64,000 nucleotides of DNA, taken from positions 197,074,311 to 197,138,310 of the forward strand of contig NC_072791.1 of the NCBI RefSeq assembly GCF_028583425.1, given 5' to 3'. The notes under the pieces were generated by a model, which did no database searches, had not been told where the DNA came from, and saw nothing but the letters and a program-made list of their open reading frames with translations. Every line of letters starts with the position of its first letter. The first letter of the stretch is position 1. Shown here one piece after another: positions 8,761 to 47,289 of the stretch. The position numbers were made by a program, and so were the translations under genes. This DNA is from Eublepharis macularius (taxonomy: Eukaryota > Chordata > Lepidosauria > Squamata > Eublepharidae).

Positions 8761-8885
8761 TTGGAGAAAAATTCTCTATTCCTTTAATGTGTGGTAGTAG
8801 GAAGCTGAAGCCTTTTGTAGCATGGATATAAATTACATCACATAGAAAATAATATTCCATTAAGCCTCTCTTAAAGGTATAGGGC

Positions 8886-9102
8886 CTTGACCTGGATCGC
8901 CCAGATGAGCCTGATCTCATCAGATCTCAGAAGCTAAGCAGGGTCAGCCTTGGTTAGTAATTGGATAGAAGACCTCCAACAAAGACCAGGGTTGCAGAGG
9001 CAGGCAATGGCAAACCACTTCTTTTAATCTCTTGCCATGAAAACCCTGCCAAGGGGGCGCCATAAGGCAGCTATGACTCTTGAGGGCACTCTCCACCACC
9101 GG
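8886..9102 (+). mobile_element. 5S-rRNA-derived SINE with 13-bp target duplication
   Basis: The cleanest copy in the window. The 5S-like core, AGATCTCAGAAGCTAAGCAG then TTAGTAATTGGATAGAAGAC, corresponds to the internal control region and 3' half of 5S rRNA. It is followed by the family body (GCAGAGGCAGGCAATGGC) and tail (GCTATGACTCTTGAGGGCAC). Flanks are AAAGGTATAGGGC at 8873-8885 and 9103-9115, a perfect 13-bp duplication. Confidence 0.92.
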
Positions 9103-37532: not shown

Positions 37533-37566
37533 CAGGGCCGGCACCAGGGCCGATTCCAGATGGGCA

Positions 37567-38196
37567 CTAATAAAGCGAGTGCTTTCGCTTTTTCGCCGTT
37601 CAAACCCGTTCACACCCGTCATATCCCGTCCCATCTTACCTGCGCTTCATGGCGCCTTGTTGCGTGATATAGGCTGCCGGTGTGAACATCCGAGTACGGG
37701 TTTGCACTGTTCTCGACGCCCCGTCACCGCTCAGAGGCCTGCCCCTTTCCCCCCCGCCGGCCGATGGCGAGGCCATTTTTTTTTTTAAAAACCGGGCGCA
37801 ATTTGCGCAAGAACGGGAATGCGTTGGTTGATGTGCGAAAATGCGCACTTCGACAAGGAACGGCAAGGAATTTCCATTCTTGCGTTTCTCCGTGGGGCTG
37901 GAAATTTTTTTTGTTTCCCAGAAAACATTTATCGATGTTGCGAAACATCTCAAAAGGCGCACTTGCGCTTCTTCGCCTCTGCCATTATGGCCCACACGCG
38001 TTTTTAGTGCTGCCGCCATTTTGTTCCTCTCAAAGAATCCCGCCACGCCACGTATTGTCGACCTTTGACCTGAACTCCCTTGCGCGCTGATTTGAGGAGC
38101 TTTGAGGGGCCCCATCCTAGGGACGAGAGAATTCCCAACTCGCAAGCACAGCAGCCAACGCCGGTGTTTGTTGCATACACGGGTATTTGGAGCAGC
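37567..38196 (+). promoter_or_regulatory. Left subterminal region and presumed promoter of SANT-like gene 1
   Basis: CpG-rich stretch between the left inverted repeat and the first ATG, with many GCGCA and TTTGCG words (for example GCGCAATTTGCGCAAGAAC at 37797) comparable to the right end. No open gene. Role inferred from position. Confidence 0.4.
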
Positions 38197-40909
38197 ATGG
38201 CCAGCGGGGGGGCAGTTGCTGGGAAGCGGGGAGTATCCTGGCGACACAGAGAGATTATGGATCTCCTACACTTCTGGGGTGAGGAGAAGATCCAGGAAGC
38301 TCTGAGAAACACCCACCGGAACTTGGACTACTTCGAGAAAATCTCGAGGCAGATGGCTGAGCAGGGCCACAAGCGGTCGGCTACAGAGTGCCGCTCGAAG
38401 ACCAAAAACATGCGCCTGGAGTACAAGAAGGTGATGGCACACAACGGTCGATCTGGGAACGCGCCTACAACCTGCCCCTACTTCAGGGAGCTCGACAGCA
38501 TTCTGAGGGGGGATGCGAGTGTTAACCCAAAGCGGCTTGCAAGAAGTATTGTGCTGGAGGTGGAGGGCAGGACGAGGCCAGACCCGCTGGACCTTCTGGA
38601 GGGCTCTGAGGAGCTTTTCAGCCATGACCTGGTCACCATCAATGCGGACCATCTTAGGACGTCGACCCCTTTCCCAAGCGGTAGGTGGGGGCGGGGTGGA
38701 GTCAGGGATTCCGGTGTTGGGGGGCCATTCGGGCTTGGGGACAGGAGATCCGTTCTGACGATGCTGGCCTCTTTTCATTAACAGGGCACATTGGCTTCGA
38801 GGAAGAAGACCTCCTGGAGCACGGGGATGATCCTGACGCGACCTTAAGTGGACTGGCAGGAACAGGTGAGGGGCCGGGTGGGGGCTACCCAAGCGGGCCT
38901 GGGCAGAGGGTGGTGTGGGCTCAGGGACACAGGCACTCTGTAGGGCGGGCCAGACTCTCCCCTCCCCAGGCCATGCCGTGATTCTCTGGTGCTGCATGGC
39001 TCTCTTCCTGGCAGCCATGACTGAACCCCCCCCCCGCCCTGGGCACAGGCCAGGTCCCCCCCCGGCCAAACCGTGATTCTCGGGCCCACTGCCCCTGAGA
39101 GAATCCCCTGCAAGCGCTGCCCAGGCTGGCCTGGGCAGAGGGTGGTGTGGGCTCAGGGACACAGGCACTCTGTAGGGCGGGCCAGACTCTCCCCTCCCCA
39201 GGCCATGCCATGATTCTCTGGTGCTGCATGGCTCTCTTCCTGGCAGCCATGACTGAACCCCCCCTTCCCTGGGCACAGGCCAGGCCCCCCCCGGCCAAAC
39301 CGTGATTCTCGGGCCCACTGCCCCTGAGAGAATCCCCTGCAAGCGCTGCCCAGGCTGGCCTGGGCAGAGGGTGGTGTGGGCTCAGGTACACAGGCACTCT
39401 GTAGGGCGGGCCAGACTCTCCCCTCCCCAGGCCATGCCGTGATTCTCTGGTGCTGCATGGCTCTCTTCCTGGCAGCCATGACTGAACCCCCCCCCCCCGC
39501 CCTGGGCACAGGCCAGGCCCCCCCCGGCCAAACCGTGATTCTCGGGCCCACTGCCCCTGAGAGAATCCCCTGCAAGCGCTGCCCAGGCTGGCCTGGGCAG
39601 AGGGTGGTGTGGGCTCAGGGACACAGGCACTCTGTGGGGCGGGCCAGACTCTCCCCTCCCCAGGCCATGCCATGATTCTCTGGTGCTGCATGGCTCTCTT
39701 CCTGGCAGCCATGACTGAACCCCCCCCCCGGGCACAGGCCAGGCCCCCCCCGGCCAAACCGTGATTCTCGGGCCCACTGCCCCTGAGAGAATCCCCTGCA
39801 AGCACTGCCCAGGCTGGCCTGGGCAGAGGGTGGTGTGGGCTCAGGGACACAGGCACTCTGTAGGGCGGGCCAGACTCTCCCCTCCCCAGGCCATGCCGTG
39901 ATTCTCTGGTGCTGCATGGCTCTCTTCCTGGCAGCCATGACTGAACCCCCCCCTTCCCTGGGCACAGGCCAGGCCCCCCCCGGCCAAACCGTGATTCTCG
40001 GGCCCACTGCCCCTGAGAGAATCCCCTGCAAGCGCTGCCCAGGCTGGCCTGGGCAGAGGGTGGTGTGGGCTCAGGGACACAGGCACTCTGTAGGGCGGGC
40101 ACTCTGTGGGGCAGCCATTGTAGTATTTCCCTAGTCCGCTGATAATGTTGCCTTCTGCGCAGATGAGACCGAGGCGGGCACTGCCAGCGGTGCGGAGGAC
40201 ACTTCTGGAAAGGAGAACAGCCCACCCTCCCCGAGCAGCGGCTCACCAGGTACCCCAGTGACCCCCATTGTGAGGCCGGGCCTTGGAGGCATCAGTCCCT
40301 ATGGCTGGCCGACCAAGGTCTGTGCCTCCCCCCCCAGACTGGGAAATGGGGAGGCCTCGACTTGATTGGTGCCTTGACCTTGCTGCTGTTCTCTCCCCTT
40401 CAGGAGGCCTTCCCGCTGCCGCTGCCCAGCTGTCCCCTGGCACACGTCTTTCAGCAATCAGGCACCGTAAGCGGAGGACCCAGGGAAGCACCGAGGTGGC
40501 CGAGAAAATGATGAGCCAGGCAGCCGATCTGCACCGCGAGGAGATTGCCGAGCGGAGGAGGGAGCAGTCCGAGGCTCAGATGTGGCGGGCTGAGTTCATG
40601 GAGGCCACTTGTCAGGAGCAGGCAATGTTCCAGAGCGCTTGGAACCAGAACCTGGAAGTGATGCGTGCAGCCGTCAGCACGCTGCAAACACTTGGAGAGG
40701 CCATGCTCCGGCGACAGGAACCGGTGGCGCCCGCTCCAGAAAGGCCACCCCTTGTACCGGTAGTGACCAACACCCAGCCTGCGACGCCAGCTCAGGGAGA
40801 ATTAGATGAGGGAACAATCAGCCAGCCTCCTGCCCCTCCTCCTCAGCCGAGGCAAGGTGTGCCAAGACGCTCCTGTGTTGGCAGGTCCAGGGATCGCCTC
40901 ACCTTGTAG
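38197..40909 (+). CDS. Harbinger accessory MYB/SANT-like DNA-binding protein 1 (spliced)
   Basis: I propose four exons: 38197-38680, 38785-38865, 40163-40249 and 40404-40909. Every junction has GT/AG ends and phase 1, giving 385 codons plus a TAG stop with no break. Residues about 13-100 form a trihelix-type MYB/SANT domain: VSWRHREIMDLLHFWGEEKI, then a CRSKTKNMRLEYKKV helix and PYFRELDSIL. Exons 2-3 are acidic and Ser/Pro-rich. Exon 4 encodes a basic RHRKRR patch, a long helical segment (about EVAEKMMSQAADLHREEIAE onward) likely to dimerise, and a Pro-rich tail. In characterised Harbingers the MYB-like partner binds the element ends and brings the transposase into the nucleus; I infer the same here. 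The start has a good context (AGCAGCATGG). Intron 2 is swollen by a 230-bp minisatellite. Host databases often mislabel such proteins as ZSCAN-like. Confidence 0.88.
38901..40110. repeat. 230-bp minisatellite in intron 2 of SANT-like gene 1
   Basis: Units begin GGGCAGAGGGTGGTGTGGGC at 38901, 39133, 39362, 39595, 39821 and 40051, i.e. spacings of 232, 229, 233, 226 and 230 bases, with a partial last unit. Most length change is in a C-run after ATGACTGAACC. The copies are nearly identical, so expansion is young. The array generates long spurious frames on both strands. Confidence 0.95.
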
Positions 40910-41064
40910 GCGCCCTTCTCAAAAGCATGAATTCCCACTCCCGGCTCCCACCAATGCACCAAAACAGGGACAATGAGGCGTTCAACAAACCCCAAAACTT
41001 TACTTTTCAACAAATAAGTGCTGCAACAGGCATCGAATGGAAACACCCCCCCCCCCCCGTCATC

Positions 41065-44000
41065 TCACTGCTCCCTTGCAGTCGACTGCTGTGCGGACAA
41101 CTGCTGCTCCAGTGCCCGAACACGCCTCTCAAGCGCCCTGTGCTTCCTTCCCTGGTAGAGGAGCAGGCGCTCCACGGTGTCAAGTCTGCTCTGCACATTG
41201 TTCACTGGAAAAAAACCAAGCAGATGATGAACACCTCGGCCTCACCACACTCCCGCCCGAACCCGAAGCCCGACTCACTCACAGGTGTTCATGATTCGGC
41301 CCTCCAGTGCCTCAATGGCGTTCAGGACGTTGTCCGTCCCCTGTAGGTTGCTCGCTGGTGGCCCTGACATACCGCTGGTAGAGGGGCCTTCATGGGGCGC
41401 GCTTGTTGGTGGAGCCTCGCCAACGCTAGACACTGTGAACAAATTGGGGCTGATCATAAGTGTGCAGTCAAAGCATGGGATGACCTGTCGGTTGAGAATT
41501 CATGCAATTTTGATCTGGTTAGAGTTATGCTGTTTGGTTTGAAGTCACGTTTGGTTAACAGTTATGAGGTTCAAGTTATGAGGTTTGGCGGTGCCCAAGT
41601 GGCCCCCGCCTGTGGCCTGTGACTCTGGAAGTTGTCCTTCAAATGTTGGGTGTTCAACCAATAAAGTTATATTGATCGGTGAGACACATACTGCCTGTTC
41701 ATTGAGTGGCGGATGCACGTCAGGCCTGCACCTACCTTGGGGCTGCTCGGCCGGTGGCTCTGGTGGTGCCTCCACCACAGGTCGGTGCAGCCGGCTCTGT
41801 TGTGGCCCACGCCTGCCACCAGGGTCTTCCCCCAGAGCTGCCTCCCGAATGGCCAGGTCTCTCCCCATCCCAGCATCTGCAATACAGTAGGATACAACAC
41901 ACCGCAGGAGTTAATCTTTCCAATGTTGGCAGTCCAGCCGACACCGCTCGCTGTGCAGGTGTGCCCACTCATGCCAGCACATGGAGTGGCGCATGTCCTG
42001 CGCTCCCCGGGGGTTTCCAGAAGCGGCCTCCAGTGGCTGCTGTTGTGCCCACGCCAGCACCTACCTTGGGGCTGCTCGGCCGGTGGCTCTGGTGGTGCCT
42101 CCACCACAGGTCGGCGCAGCCGGCTCTGTTGTGGTCCACGCCTGCCGCCAGGGTCTTCCCCCAGAGCTGCCTCCCGAATGGCCAGGTCTCTCCCCATCCC
42201 AGCATCTGCAATACAGTAGGACACAACACACCGCAGGAGTTAATCTTTCCAATGTTGGCAGTCCAGCCGACACCGCTCGCTGTGCAGGTGTGCCCACTCA
42301 TGCCAGCGCATGGAGTGGCGCATGTCCTGTGCTCCCCGGGGGTTTCCAGAAGCGGCCTCCAGTGGCTGCTGTTGTGCCCACGCCAGCACCTACCTTGGGG
42401 CTGCTCGGCCGGTGGCTCTGGTGGTGCCTCCACCACAGGTCGGCGCAGCCGGCTCTGTTGTGGCCCACGCCTGCCGCCAGGGTCTTCCCCCAGAGCTGCC
42501 TCCCGAATGGCCAGGTCTCTCCCCATCCCAGCATCTGCAATACAGTAGGACACAACACACCGCAGGAGTTAATCTTTCCAATGTTGACAGTCCAGCCGAC
42601 ACCGCTCGCTGTGCAGGTGTGCCCACTCATGCCAGCGCATGGAGTGGCGCATGTCCTGCGCTCCCCGGGGGTTTCCAGAAGCGGCCTCCGGTGGCTGCTG
42701 TTGTGCCCACGCCAGCACCTACCTTGGGGCTGCTCGGCCGGTGGCTCTGGTGGTGCCTCCAATCCCTCGGGCACACCCTCCTCTTGCTCCTCGACAGCAG
42801 GTGGGGGAAGTTCCTCCGGCACAGGCCTCGCTTCCTCTACCTCCTCCTCCTCCTCCTCCTCGCGCACCTGTGGCCTTGCACGCTCTATCCCCCTCTGGAC
42901 TGCTGCAAGTGCAATGGGCGGCGAGGTGGTTACTCTTGCCAGCCATCTCTGTGGGTGTGGGAGATCAGAGGGGTGCGTGTGTGCCCACCAATATATTGCC
43001 CACAGACTGTGCACAATTGCCCTTGGAACGAGAGGTCCATCACGTCTCACACGGTGGGATCAGCTTTGGCCGTGGTGGAGGGTCGGGGCCCAGGTTGGAG
43101 ATGGAGTTGTCAACCCTATGCAGGCCAGCATGTATGTTTTTCCTTGTAAGGCTAATGGATGGCTTCTGGGGCCTTTAACTTATGAGTGCTTTGGTGCAAC
43201 ATTCACACACTATGCACTGAATGGACAATGCAAGAATAGCAATCTCAAGCCACACTGACCCCGCCTATAATGGACCCTTACAAACTTTGGTCCTTGTCGT
43301 GGCGGACTAGTAGTGAGGTGTGGACACGGTGAGATATAAATGCGGAGATATGTTCCTGACCACATTTTTTGTTGCATGGGAGTGCTCTTCCACGTTATAG
43401 AGTGGATTCAAGCAGCTTCTCTGCTTGCAGAAAAAGGGAGACCGGGTCATTTTTGAACACAAAAATGGGTATCCAGGGGATTCTGCAGCCATGCGGCATG
43501 GCCACTGTTGGATGTAAGGGAGATGGGTGAGACGGGGGGAGGGGGCTGGAACTGGCTGGATTCAACCCAATATTCTTTTCATGGGGATGTGGCCTCGAAG
43601 GTCGGGGCAGTTCTCACGCAAGATGCCACCCCTGGCCAGAGAGCCCAGTCTCGCGTGACTTCCCGGGAACAGTGGTAACATGGTGGGCTAAAACCAGCAT
43701 TTTCAGCAGTCCATGAAATGGCCCCTCGAACAGGGAACAGTTTCGGCCTAGGGGTGGGGTGGGATGACAGGTGTGGCATCACACCTTGAAGTCTGGGTGC
43801 AGTGTGCATCCAACATGCCACTCCCAGCCACACCAGCCTGTCTGTTTTCACCCATGGGAAACACTGCCAAAAGGGGGTGGGTGGTGGCACCATCTTATGG
43901 AGGCCCGTTGTGAGATAGGCTCGTGCCTTGGTGGAGGTCGGGAGGGGTTGGTGACATCTCACGAGCGCGATGATACGCACAGCCACACAAGCCTCTCCTT

Positions 44001-44373
44001 TCCCCAGGCCTTGCACGCCTCCACATCTTGCTTACCGGCGTGTCTCCAGTCCTCCCAACTCGGCCGGCCCGCCTGCTCCCAAAGGTGCCGCATCTGCGCA
44101 AAGTAGGGCAGCCGCGCAGTCATCCGAGGGATCCCCTGCCAGTGTTCCAGGGCCCCGAAAAAGTCCGCCTTGATCCGCTTGAATTGAGCGGCATTGGTCT
44201 GCGGATCGAGGGTAACCCCTCGCGCCAAGCTGTCTGGCGACCCTGGAGAAGAGGCTTTCTGTGGGAAGGTGGCTGCTGCACATGATACGAGCTGCCTTGC
44301 CACTCTCCAGAAGCAGGTCAAGGAGCGCATCAACCTCCCGGTCTTTCCAGAAGCGCCCCTTGGTCGCCGCCAT
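41065..44373 (-). CDS. Harbinger accessory SANT-like protein 2 (spliced, tandem exons, one frameshift)
   Basis: I propose these minus-strand exons: 44373-44036, 42902-42723, 42534-42394, 42205-42065, 41876-41736, 41432-41283 and 41204-41065 (stop TGA). All internal junctions have GT/AG ends and phase 1. Exon 1 encodes a second, different trihelix/SANT domain: GRFWKDREVDALLDLLLESG, FSRVARQLGARGYPRSADQC, FKRIKADFFGALEHW and LPYFAQMRHLWEQAG. Exon 2 is strongly acidic (a run of Glu, then Pro/Glu-rich). Three 47-codon repeated exons follow, then a Ser/Pro linker and a final coiled-coil exon (SRLDTVERLLLYQ, HRALERRVRALEQQLSAQQ). One base seems to be missing near 44181-44187, between the CRS and FKRIK segments; otherwise the frame is open. 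This copy may therefore make only a truncated protein unless the break is a sequencing error. The ATG at 44373 has a good context. The exon 1-2 join spans 1.1 kb and is the least certain. Confidence 0.75.
41720..42765. repeat. 329-bp tandem array carrying a duplicated exon
   Basis: Splice-donor ends recur at exactly 329-base steps (42723, 42394, 42065, 41736). Each full unit holds a 141-nt exon (47 codons, phase 1 on both sides) with acceptor TACTGTATTGCAG and donor CAAG/GTAGGT, plus a 188-base intron. The first unit shares only the 3' end of exon 2. Because 141 is a multiple of three and phases are symmetric, any number of copies stays in frame. The units are nearly identical. Confidence 0.93.
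43051..44030. other. Intron of SANT-like gene 2
   Basis: Interior of the transposon between proposed exons 1 and 2. It is GC-rich with no further exon I can support. Confidence 0.45.
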
Positions 44374-44427
44374 TTTTGCTCTGGCTTTTGCGGGGCTGCG
44401 TAAATGCGCGGGAACGCTACTGAGCAT

Positions 44428-45283
44428 GCCCGAAATTCAAACTGCTTTTTGCTAGGAGGCCTGCGATTGGACAGTTGAGAGCGGCCATTTTAGGGTTTGC
44501 AGAAGGACCGGCTCTCATTTTGCACCTTTTCGCACCGGCGAACATATATTAGCACAGCCAACCCTGCACAATTCGACCACATTCTTTTATCCCAAAACTG
44601 CTTTTTGTCCGATAACGCCATACAGCAAACAAAGATATCGTGCAGGCACCGGATTGCCCTCTACGCCACAGGCGGGGGGGGGTTATTATGCGGAGATCGA
44701 ATGCCGCCATCTCACGGGGAGCGGAAATGATCCGGCGCCATTTTGTGGCTTATCGAAGTGGCGAAAATCAGGCGGCACACGGCCATCCCTGCATAACCCA
44801 TACACACTCTTTTAATGTTAACAGTTGGTTGTCTCACATTACCGTTCGACCAACCCACACATCATGCAATCGACACCCTCCATCCTGTGATCAGGGGGGT
44901 AGAACACCCTTCGCCAATGCTGAAACTTTATTCAGACATATAGCAGGGTCGAAATGTGCCACTGGCATTGACCACATTTTCGTATCTGCGCAAATGCGTC
45001 AGCACAACAGCCCCACAATATACGACCGCCCATCACTCCTCTGAACTCAAAAGTCGCAGGAGCCGCAAATATTCTCCCGCATGCTTAACGAGACCGCTTC
45101 CCCCCTAGTCTGTGCGAATAATACAATTGCGTGAGATGGATGAAATGCCCCCCCCCTTTTCCCGCTTCAGAAACGATCCCCGCAACGGGGGCCCCTTCCA
45201 ACCCCCAGAATGCCGCTGCCCAGACACGCTCAGTTGGTCACTGGTAATAACTGCGAGGCCACCATCATTTCATAAATCAAATC
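44428..45283. other. Harbinger interior between SANT-like gene 2 and transposase 3' end
   Basis: Holds the likely promoter of SANT-like gene 2 (44380-44700, CpG-rich) and downstream sequence of the transposase. No further gene is supportable. Confidence 0.45.
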
Positions 45284-45289
45284 TTTATT
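45284..45289 (-). promoter_or_regulatory. Polyadenylation signal for the transposase
   Basis: AATAAA on the minus strand, 78 bases after the transposase stop codon at 45367. Position and canonical hexamer fit the 3' end of a short UTR. Confidence 0.65.
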
Positions 45290-45366
45290 GTCACCAAAGA
45301 GTCTGCATTGCAAAAGATACCGTTGCTGGTCACGCATTCCCGGGGCCCACAAGGAAAACCAGAGCA

Positions 45367-46875
45367 TCACCGCCTGTCCCTTGCATACATGAATGCCGCC
45401 ATCGCATCACGGACCTCCTTCCCCTCCTCCAACACTCCCCGGTCGTTCTCCCCGAACTCCAGACCACCGCCGGGCATTGTCAAAGGCGTGGGATCCCGCA
45501 ATGAACCCAGCACGCCATGGCCTTTGGCCTCACACAAATTGTGCAGGATCACGCATGCAGTCACAATTGTCACCACGTTCTCCTCTCTGGCCCTCAGGCG
45601 ATGCAGGAGACATTGCCAGCGCCCCTTCAGACGTCCGAAACTGCATTCCACCTTATTCCTAGCCCGTGCCCGGCACCGGTCAAAGTACTTCTGCTGTTGC
45701 GTGGTGGCGAATTTCCCATAAGGCTTCATAAGCCATCGCCTCATTGGATACGCACCGTCAGTGATCATCAGTGGTGGCACAGATACACCGTTCACAGTCA
45801 GGGTCGGATTTCCCGGGACAAAAACGCCAGTGTCCATTGCCGCACAGATGGCCGAGTTGTGGAAGACAAAGGCATCGTGATTCTTGCCACTCCAGCCCAC
45901 CTCCGCGTCCACAAAACATCCGGTGTGGTCGACTGTCCCCTGGAGCAAGATGGAAGAGAAGTTCTTGAGATTTCCATATTGGTCCAGCCTCCCCCGGGGC
46001 TGACCGATGCAAATGTGAGTTCCATCTATCGCCCCGACACAGTGGGGGAACCCCAGCGCGGAATACCCGTCCATGATCTGAAACGCAAGGAAAAGAGGAT
46101 CAGTCTAGACCCCGAGTCGGCCACGCACGACATGACCAAACCACACACACCCAAAAAATAACTGCGGGCGTGGACTGGCCAATCATTGTTGCGATGGCTC
46201 GAAATTCTAAATATCGCTACTGCGCAAATGCAGATAAAAATAAAAAAGATTTCATTAGGGAACAGCCTACTTGGCAATGACACTCACCTTTCCGACCTCC
46301 TCCCCAAGGCAAACCAGCTTGGAGAGCAGCTCCTTCTCAATGGCGAAGCAGACCTCCAGCACAGCATCCGAAACAGTCGATAACCCCAAACCGAAGTTGT
46401 CCCCCGCGACGCGGTAACATGCTCCAGTGGCAAGGCACCATACTGCCACGGCCACCCTCTTCTCCACGGAGACGGGCTCACGCATGTTGGTGCTCTGCCG
46501 TTCCAAGGTTGGTCGAAGCACACCCACAAGCTCCATGAAGGTCCCCCTGCTCATTCTGAAGCACTGGATCCAATGTTGGTCGTCCCAAACACGCAACACT
46601 ATGCGCTCCCACCAGTCCCAGCTGCGGGGATAGACCCAACAGTCCCGCGGTTCTCTAATGTGCGCAAGTGCATACCACCGCTGGTGAAGCCGATATCTTC
46701 GCAAAGCGGCCCTTCGAGCGGTTCTGGCCGGGTTGCCACAATGGAAAAGTAGTGTGGCAGCCCTTTTTCTCCGCATAATGTGCCACAGATGCGCTTGGCA
46801 CAGCGCCGTCGAGCTCTGGAGCAGGAGAATCACCAGCTGAGCCATCATGAGAAAAATTTCTCTCTCGGGCGCCAT
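45367..46875 (-). CDS. HARBI1-like DDE transposase of the Harbinger element (two exons)
   Basis: Exon 1 is 46875-46288 (196 codons) and exon 2 is 46077-45367. The 210-base intron has donor GTGAGT and acceptor CTTGCGTTTCAG and joins EEVGK to IMDGYSALGFPHCVGA without a phase change, giving 432 residues. Exon 1 ends with the helix-turn-helix-like region (MSRGTFMELVGVLRPTLE, then SVEKRVAVAVWCLATGACYR) that precedes the catalytic core. Exon 2 is the DDE core of the DDE_Tnp_4 class: D at about 214 in GAIDGTHI, D at about 303 in ITDGAYP, and E at about 340 in KVECSFGRLKGRWQ, spacing about 37. The triad and the surrounding YN-like and NHDAFVF segments are all present, so the protein looks capable of catalysis. 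It would cut and paste the element with help from a MYB-like partner. Start ATG 46875 is the first in frame and sits close to the right terminal repeat. Confidence 0.93.
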
Positions 46876-47270
46876 GTCAGCTTCTACTGCTCACGACGCA
46901 CTAAGACAATGATAGAGAATCCAGAAGAGAATCGGCAACCAATACTCTTCCTAAGAACTTCGCGGGTCGAGTTGACCGGCCAATCGCCAGCCAGTTGACG
47001 TAGCGTGGTCGCAAAGCTGCGCAATTGCGCAGCTGCGCAAAATACGTAACAAAAAAAATAAAAAACAAACAAACACGGGCCAACGAGGGCCCCCGACGTC
47101 AACTCTGACGGGAAAAAAGCAACCAATGCCCGGCGACTGCAGTTGCCCGTGCGAGCAGCCGGGAGCGGGACTACATGGGACTACACGGAACACGATGGGA
47201 CCACACGCTGCAACGCGAAACGAAACAGATGGCCGGTAAGCGAATATAATTGCTAAAGAAACGCGATTTC
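46876..47270 (-). promoter_or_regulatory. Right subterminal region and presumed transposase promoter
   Basis: About 400 bases between the transposase start and the right inverted repeat. It contains repeated TGCGCAATTGCGCAGCTGCG words (47017-47036), an inverted-repeat-like cluster that could bind the SANT-like proteins. No TATA box is obvious. Function is inferred from position. Confidence 0.4.
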
Positions 47271-47289
47271 TGCCCATCTGGAATCGGCC

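Follow-up and report, generated by a model that had tools for sequence, protein, structure and literature searches.

Harbinger elements provide the standard example of a transposase reliant on a single, separately encoded DNA-binding protein. The transposase/partner pair is described as having repeatedly become host genes, as exemplified by HARBI1/NAIF1 and by insect and plant pairs (PMC9710019). In the Harbingers described, the transposase requires a Myb/SANT protein, which attaches to subterminal DNA and carries the transposase to the nucleus (PMC9710019, PMC9179366), and in zebrafish Harbinger3 the SANT partner is reported also to aid the formation of the end complex (PMC9710019). A survey covering 836 genomes and 380 PHIS families reports two ORFs for the majority of Harbinger, Nuwa and Pangu candidates (PMC4482050). 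These accounts agree with the statement, made when the locus was first read, that characterised vertebrate Harbingers have one transposase and one Myb-like partner (PMC9710019, PMC9179366, PMC4482050). While described two-ORF elements of the Harbinger type carry a transposase and one other gene, the element analysed here carries three genes, and does so in five families.

The window, i.e. the whole stretch of 64,000 nucleotides of Eublepharis macularius DNA that was analysed, contains at 37548-47289 an element of 9,742 bp bounded by a perfect 19-bp terminal inverted repeat at each end. The sequence GGCCGATTCCAGATGGGCA opens the element at 37548, and its exact complement closes it at 47289, precisely as originally stated. 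One SANT gene, called G1, runs rightward; the second SANT gene, G2, and the transposase gene run leftward. Exon borders of all three genes are predictions from splice signals and open frames, and the start of G2 exon 2 is the acceptor that leaves the frames open. The features are the following:

37548..37566, plus strand: left 19-bp terminal inverted repeat
38197..38680, plus strand: G1 exon 1, predicted, with start codon and SANT/trihelix domain (PF13837)
38785..38865, plus strand: G1 exon 2, predicted
38884..40100, plus strand: 233-bp tandem array in G1 intron 2, 5.3 units
40163..40249, plus strand: G1 exon 3, predicted
40404..40909, plus strand: G1 exon 4, predicted, with tail and stop codon
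41065..41204, minus strand: G2 last exon, predicted, with helical-looking tail and stop codon
41283..41432, minus strand: G2 penultimate exon, predicted
41736..41876, minus strand: G2 repeated 141-nt exon, third unit, predicted
42065..42205, minus strand: G2 repeated 141-nt exon, second unit, predicted
42394..42534, minus strand: G2 repeated 141-nt exon, first unit, predicted
42723..42902, minus strand: G2 exon 2, predicted
44036..44373, minus strand: G2 exon 1, with SANT domain and start codon; it lacks 2 bp relative to the other 14 full copies read
45370..46077, minus strand: transposase exon 2, with DDE domain; stop codon at 45367-45369
46288..46875, minus strand: transposase exon 1, predicted, with start codon
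47271..47289, minus strand: right 19-bp terminal inverted repeat

Elsewhere in the window (8884-9002, plus strand) a 5S rRNA match barely exceeds the threshold (40.3 vs 38 bits), and is perhaps a pseudogene or a SINE head.

Thirteen copies of the window family were compared at both ends. Identical 3-bp flanks, with A or T always central, were found in 10 of them (ATA, TTG, CTG twice, TAG twice, CTA, ATT twice and CAT); flanks are unlike in the window copy (CAG/CTG), and in those at C11:13.7M (ATG/CAT) and C13:41.2M (TAG/CAG). A DDE_Tnp_4-type transposase, the 19-bp terminal repeats accompanied by a 3-bp flank duplication (10/13 copies, not the window's) and an element-encoded Myb/SANT partner, a trait of most groups, place the element in the Harbinger/PHIS superfamily. 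NuwaI and NuwaII resemble it in having inverted repeats that start with GG, 3-bp target duplications which do not follow the TWA rule, and a DDE transposase plus a Myb/SANT gene (PMC4482050). The target reported for NuwaI, CWG (PMC4482050), is found around one copy of the related family L049 (CAG) and one of family C (CTG), but only in 2/10 flanks of the window family; TNA, the core of the NuwaII target C|TNA|G, occurs in 0/10 of the identical flanks. Moreover, NuwaI and NuwaII are described as mostly two-ORF elements averaging about 4.5-4.7 kb (PMC4482050), whereas the elements described here have three genes and span 9-12 kb. PIF/Harbinger elements in the narrow sense, such as zebrafish Harbinger3_DR, similarly combine a DDE_Tnp_4-type transposase with a SANT/trihelix partner (PMC9710019). 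Yet, Harbinger3_DR is described with two genes and TWA duplications (PMC9710019), while here TAA or TTA are found in 0/10 flanks, and a second SANT gene is present. Harbinger-Snek of sea kraits is likewise a recently amplified reptile Harbinger encoding a transposase and a Myb-like protein (PMC8437027), and differs by having two encoded proteins, a distinction based on its description (PMC8437027). Three proteins are encoded by fungal TET+ Harbinger families, but the extra ones are reported to be a TET/JBP dioxygenase and a third protein without a Myb/SANT domain (PMC12730594). No Harbinger with two SANT genes was recognised among the papers listed from the open-licence literature; Repbase, Dfam and closed papers fell outside this scope, and the novelty of a two-SANT Harbinger is therefore provisional.

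The transposase gene of the window copy consists of two exons, encodes 432 aa free of internal stops, and matches PF13359 across the domain (E=5e-26), so that the complete DDE transposase recognised at the start is confirmed; searching the sequences of solved structures with this protein gave no match. G1, described earlier as an open SANT gene of four exons on the plus strand, is indeed open in its four predicted exons, encodes 385 aa up to the stop and matches PF13837 with E=5.9e-19. In the solved-structure sequence search it clearly finds the plant trihelix protein GT-1 (3.4e-06), which is also found, weakly (0.021), by G2. The 233-bp array of G1 intron 2 varies widely in length from copy to copy. 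The earlier claim of a second, clearly different SANT gene on the minus strand holds as to distinctness: G2 matches PF13837 (E=6.9e-07 with the broken frame of the window, 6.3e-12 with the intact gene of a sister copy), and the SANT domains of G1 and G2 share 23-27% identity inside one family, hence they are not recent duplicates. The claim fails as to the integrity of the window copy. G2 exon 1 measures here 338 nt, while each of the 14 remaining full copies compared has 340 nt; the missing 2 bp shift the frame within the SANT domain, and the whole G2 is consequently not encoded by the window copy. The SANT domain of G2 is N-terminal, and the tail, as judged by eye, is heptad-rich. At 41724-42761 on the minus strand lies the G2 array, a 329-bp tandem repeat of 3.2 units with one 141-nt exon per unit. 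As 141 is divisible by three, and one, two or three of these exons stand in frame depending on the copy, the G2 protein varies in length among copies.

Copies were sought in the genome by searches in which 40 candidates each were scored, out of 697 for the left end, 114 for G2 exon 1, 92 for G1 exon 4 and 489 for the transposase; the copy numbers obtained are lower bounds. The transposase search returned 43 matches, three of which are second pieces of the same loci, leaving 40 loci, and matches in divergent families from the G1 and G2 protein searches were added to the count of co-occurrence. Two further left-end loci, copies that end within the G1 intron array (L003, C12:57541456, and L008, C12:19971127), were excluded from the full-copy counts; in the stretch examined, the array is followed by unlike sequence. 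An open frame is present for the transposase in 14 of 15 full copies, for G1 in 13, for G2 in 12, and for all three genes in 12. The possibility that G2 is not a gene is ruled out by the 12/15 full copies in which it is open and by its low dN/dS. Likeness among copies, measured on the compared coding parts and on 640 bp of the left end, reaches 99.7-100% in some cases, which denotes recent activity, and is 97.9-99.1% between the window copy and others.

The two SANT genes are found together with the transposase. G1 and G2 lie within 15 kb at 25/25 of the near-identical transposase loci listed (best of 489 candidates), and in all 25 G2 is on the transposase strand and G1 on the opposite one. 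Many copies with the same three-gene order had been named as a supporting outcome, and this uniform scheme of orientation is in keeping with it. The outcome named as refuting, a SANT gene absent from other full-length copies of the family, is not borne out, as both genes were found also at 11/15 divergent loci listed, in the same orientation scheme; one gene is missing at 3/15, and neither was found at 1/15. At C5:109934239-109936114 the left end and the transposase are close by and neither SANT gene is listed nearby; this is probably an internally deleted derivative. A nested or composite element is ruled out, since all three genes recur at the 25/25 near-identical loci listed and in other families.

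Wider protein searches were considered for the best 150 of 1,391 (G2) and of 1,473 (G1) candidates. Within the best 150 G2 matches, 65/74 loci with at least 71% identity have G1 at 15 kb or less, in 65/65 cases on the opposite strand; at 62-70% identity a listed G1 accompanies 10/76. Conversely, 75/150 of the G1 matches are without a listed G2, and the window copy is one of them, because its G2 is frameshifted. The two latter counts are limited by covering the best 150 matches of about 1,400 candidates, and the locus of family C counts as a miss despite having G1; judging from these matches, some of the unmatched loci may represent families in which just one SANT gene is present. Many G1-like loci at 73-79% identity are without a G2 among the best 150 G2 matches; their G2 may be more distant, or missing altogether. 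Searching the host genome with PF13837 (best 150 of 1,402 candidates) returned, among others, 40 matches that share a score of 81.1 bits; their open frames are mostly 242 aa long, and they look like several recently amplified Harbinger-like families.

The trio is an old one. Four further families carry all three genes, with identity to the window family down to 57% for the transposase and 47% for G2. One of them, L049 (C4:69.28M), measures 9.0 kb, ends almost as the window element does, is flanked by CAG/CAG and has three genes; identity is 90% and 78% in the SANT exons of G1 and G2, respectively, and 76% over the transposase. In families A (C3:47.8M) and C (C3:48.77M) the start exons of G1 and G2 are back to back, 0.6-0.7 kb apart, and the transposase lies beyond G1, a gene order unlike that of the window element. 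Family B (C3:128.5M) has the window gene order, and identities of 57% (transposase exon 2), 58% (G1) and 47% (G2). Candidate ends of family C, with CTG/CTG flanks, delimit 11,952 bp. The end search gave no pair with matching flanks in families A and B; under a looser pattern, candidate ends with unlike flanks were found in A, and no left end in B. FastTree trees of the transposase, G1 and G2 each group the window family with L049 and A with C, and keep B separate. Occurrence in five families, agreement of the trees and low dN/dS all sustain the initial idea of an element with two SANT genes of its own, as opposed to a one-off host capture. The window element is a member of a conserved three-gene branch of Harbinger/PHIS transposons. 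Since its relatives in the genome retain the full trio, both SANT proteins probably matter for transposition.

In the distant family L050, whose transposase exon 2 is 40% identical, one Myb gene was found within the 8 kb examined; the ends of this element were not found, and a second gene may lie outside these 8 kb. This Myb protein is 26-41% identical to G1 and 23-26% to G2, and being nearer to G1 suggests that G1 is the usual partner and G2 an addition. Of two joint SANT trees, one places the L050 Myb with G1 (support 0.906), while in the second it falls on the branch leading to G2 (0.795). Given this disagreement, G1 as the usual and G2 as the added partner is a tentative reading.

Selection was gauged by a simple Nei-Gojobori count, without significance test, using the copy at C2:148.4M as reference. 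dN/dS is 0.09-0.18 for the G2 SANT exon (8 divergent copies), 0.12 for G1 exon 1 (one copy, a second one having been dropped because the exon is partial in the stretch examined), 0.20-0.41 for G1 exon 4 (6 copies), 0.15-0.21 for transposase exon 1 and 0.10-0.17 for exon 2 (4 copies each). These values include decay after insertion, as several divergent copies carry stops or frameshifts. Six divergent G2 copies free of indels gave pairwise values of 0.09-0.50, the highest coming from two close, decayed copies. Between the window family and L049, dN/dS is 0.07 for G1, 0.09 for G2 and 0.08 for transposase exon 2; between families, G2 gave 0.07 for A vs C and 0.21 for L049 vs C, the remaining pairs being saturated at synonymous sites. 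Purifying selection on both SANT genes, which had been proposed as a test, is borne out by values well below 1 against divergent copies (0.09-0.18 for G2, 0.12-0.41 for G1), which implies that each of the two genes is of some use to the element.

How two SANT proteins may share the work can be modelled on known systems. By analogy with zebrafish Harbinger3, G1 would most likely bind subterminal DNA, import the transposase into the nucleus and assist in assembling the end complex. G2 would most likely bind further sites in the same element, and enter the complex to serve as its second recognition subunit. A single complex with two subunits for DNA recognition is the arrangement we favour. The main rival, a role also raised when the locus was first read, is a G2 acting as a regulator encoded by the element, which might for example repress the transposase genes or the end complex, maintained because restraint pays, and dispensable for movement. 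The SANT domain of G2 speaks for a regulator, of which purifying selection like that on the other genes would be expected as well; moreover, in families A and C, where 0.6-0.7 kb separates the start exon of G1 from that of G2, a SANT protein could act on a shared promoter. Known Harbinger partners, however, are described as working in transposition itself (PMC9710019), and a purely regulatory G2 is rather unlikely. In the window family and in L049, the motifs CTTACC and TGCGCAA each occur close to the left as well as the right end, and at some inner sites too; in family C neither is close to both. As subterminal motifs for the SANT proteins they are a weak lead, and establish no shared binding motif.

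The division of labour initially put forward, one SANT protein per element end, would suit two distinct SANT domains and the fact that left and right subterminal sequences differ past the inverted repeat. The presence of CTTACC and TGCGCAA close to either end of the elements of the window family and L049 speaks mildly against it, albeit as a weak test, given that the pattern fails in family C; we consider this arrangement improbable. Still slightly less credit is given to G2 as a passenger without a role, be it a gene captured from the host or from a foreign source, or a nested element. The frameshift in the window G2 and the 75/150 G1 matches without a listed G2 (best 150 matches per search) would fit with a passenger, but the dN/dS of 0.09-0.18 already disfavours it, and a gene without a role is hard to reconcile with the presence of both SANT genes at 25/25 near-identical loci listed, and of G2 in five families with agreeing trees and two gene orders.

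We thus favour, with a probability of roughly 0.6, the reading that the element is a Harbinger/PHIS DNA transposon that moves by cut and paste and is equipped with its own DDE transposase, with G1 as the usual SANT partner and with a long co-inherited second SANT protein, G2, the two acting as proposed above. The structure of the element, its copies, and the joint inheritance of, and purifying selection on, all three genes are observations. More tentatively, and at somewhat less than even odds, the whole Harbinger branch may rely on an obligate three-protein machine, in which recognition of the element and assembly of the transposase would be the joint work of two non-interchangeable SANT proteins, the trio having been kept through a change in gene order and several recent bursts. 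A branch with two conserved partners makes the share of each partner in end recognition, nuclear import and control testable, and is a possible additional source of SANT-domain host genes.
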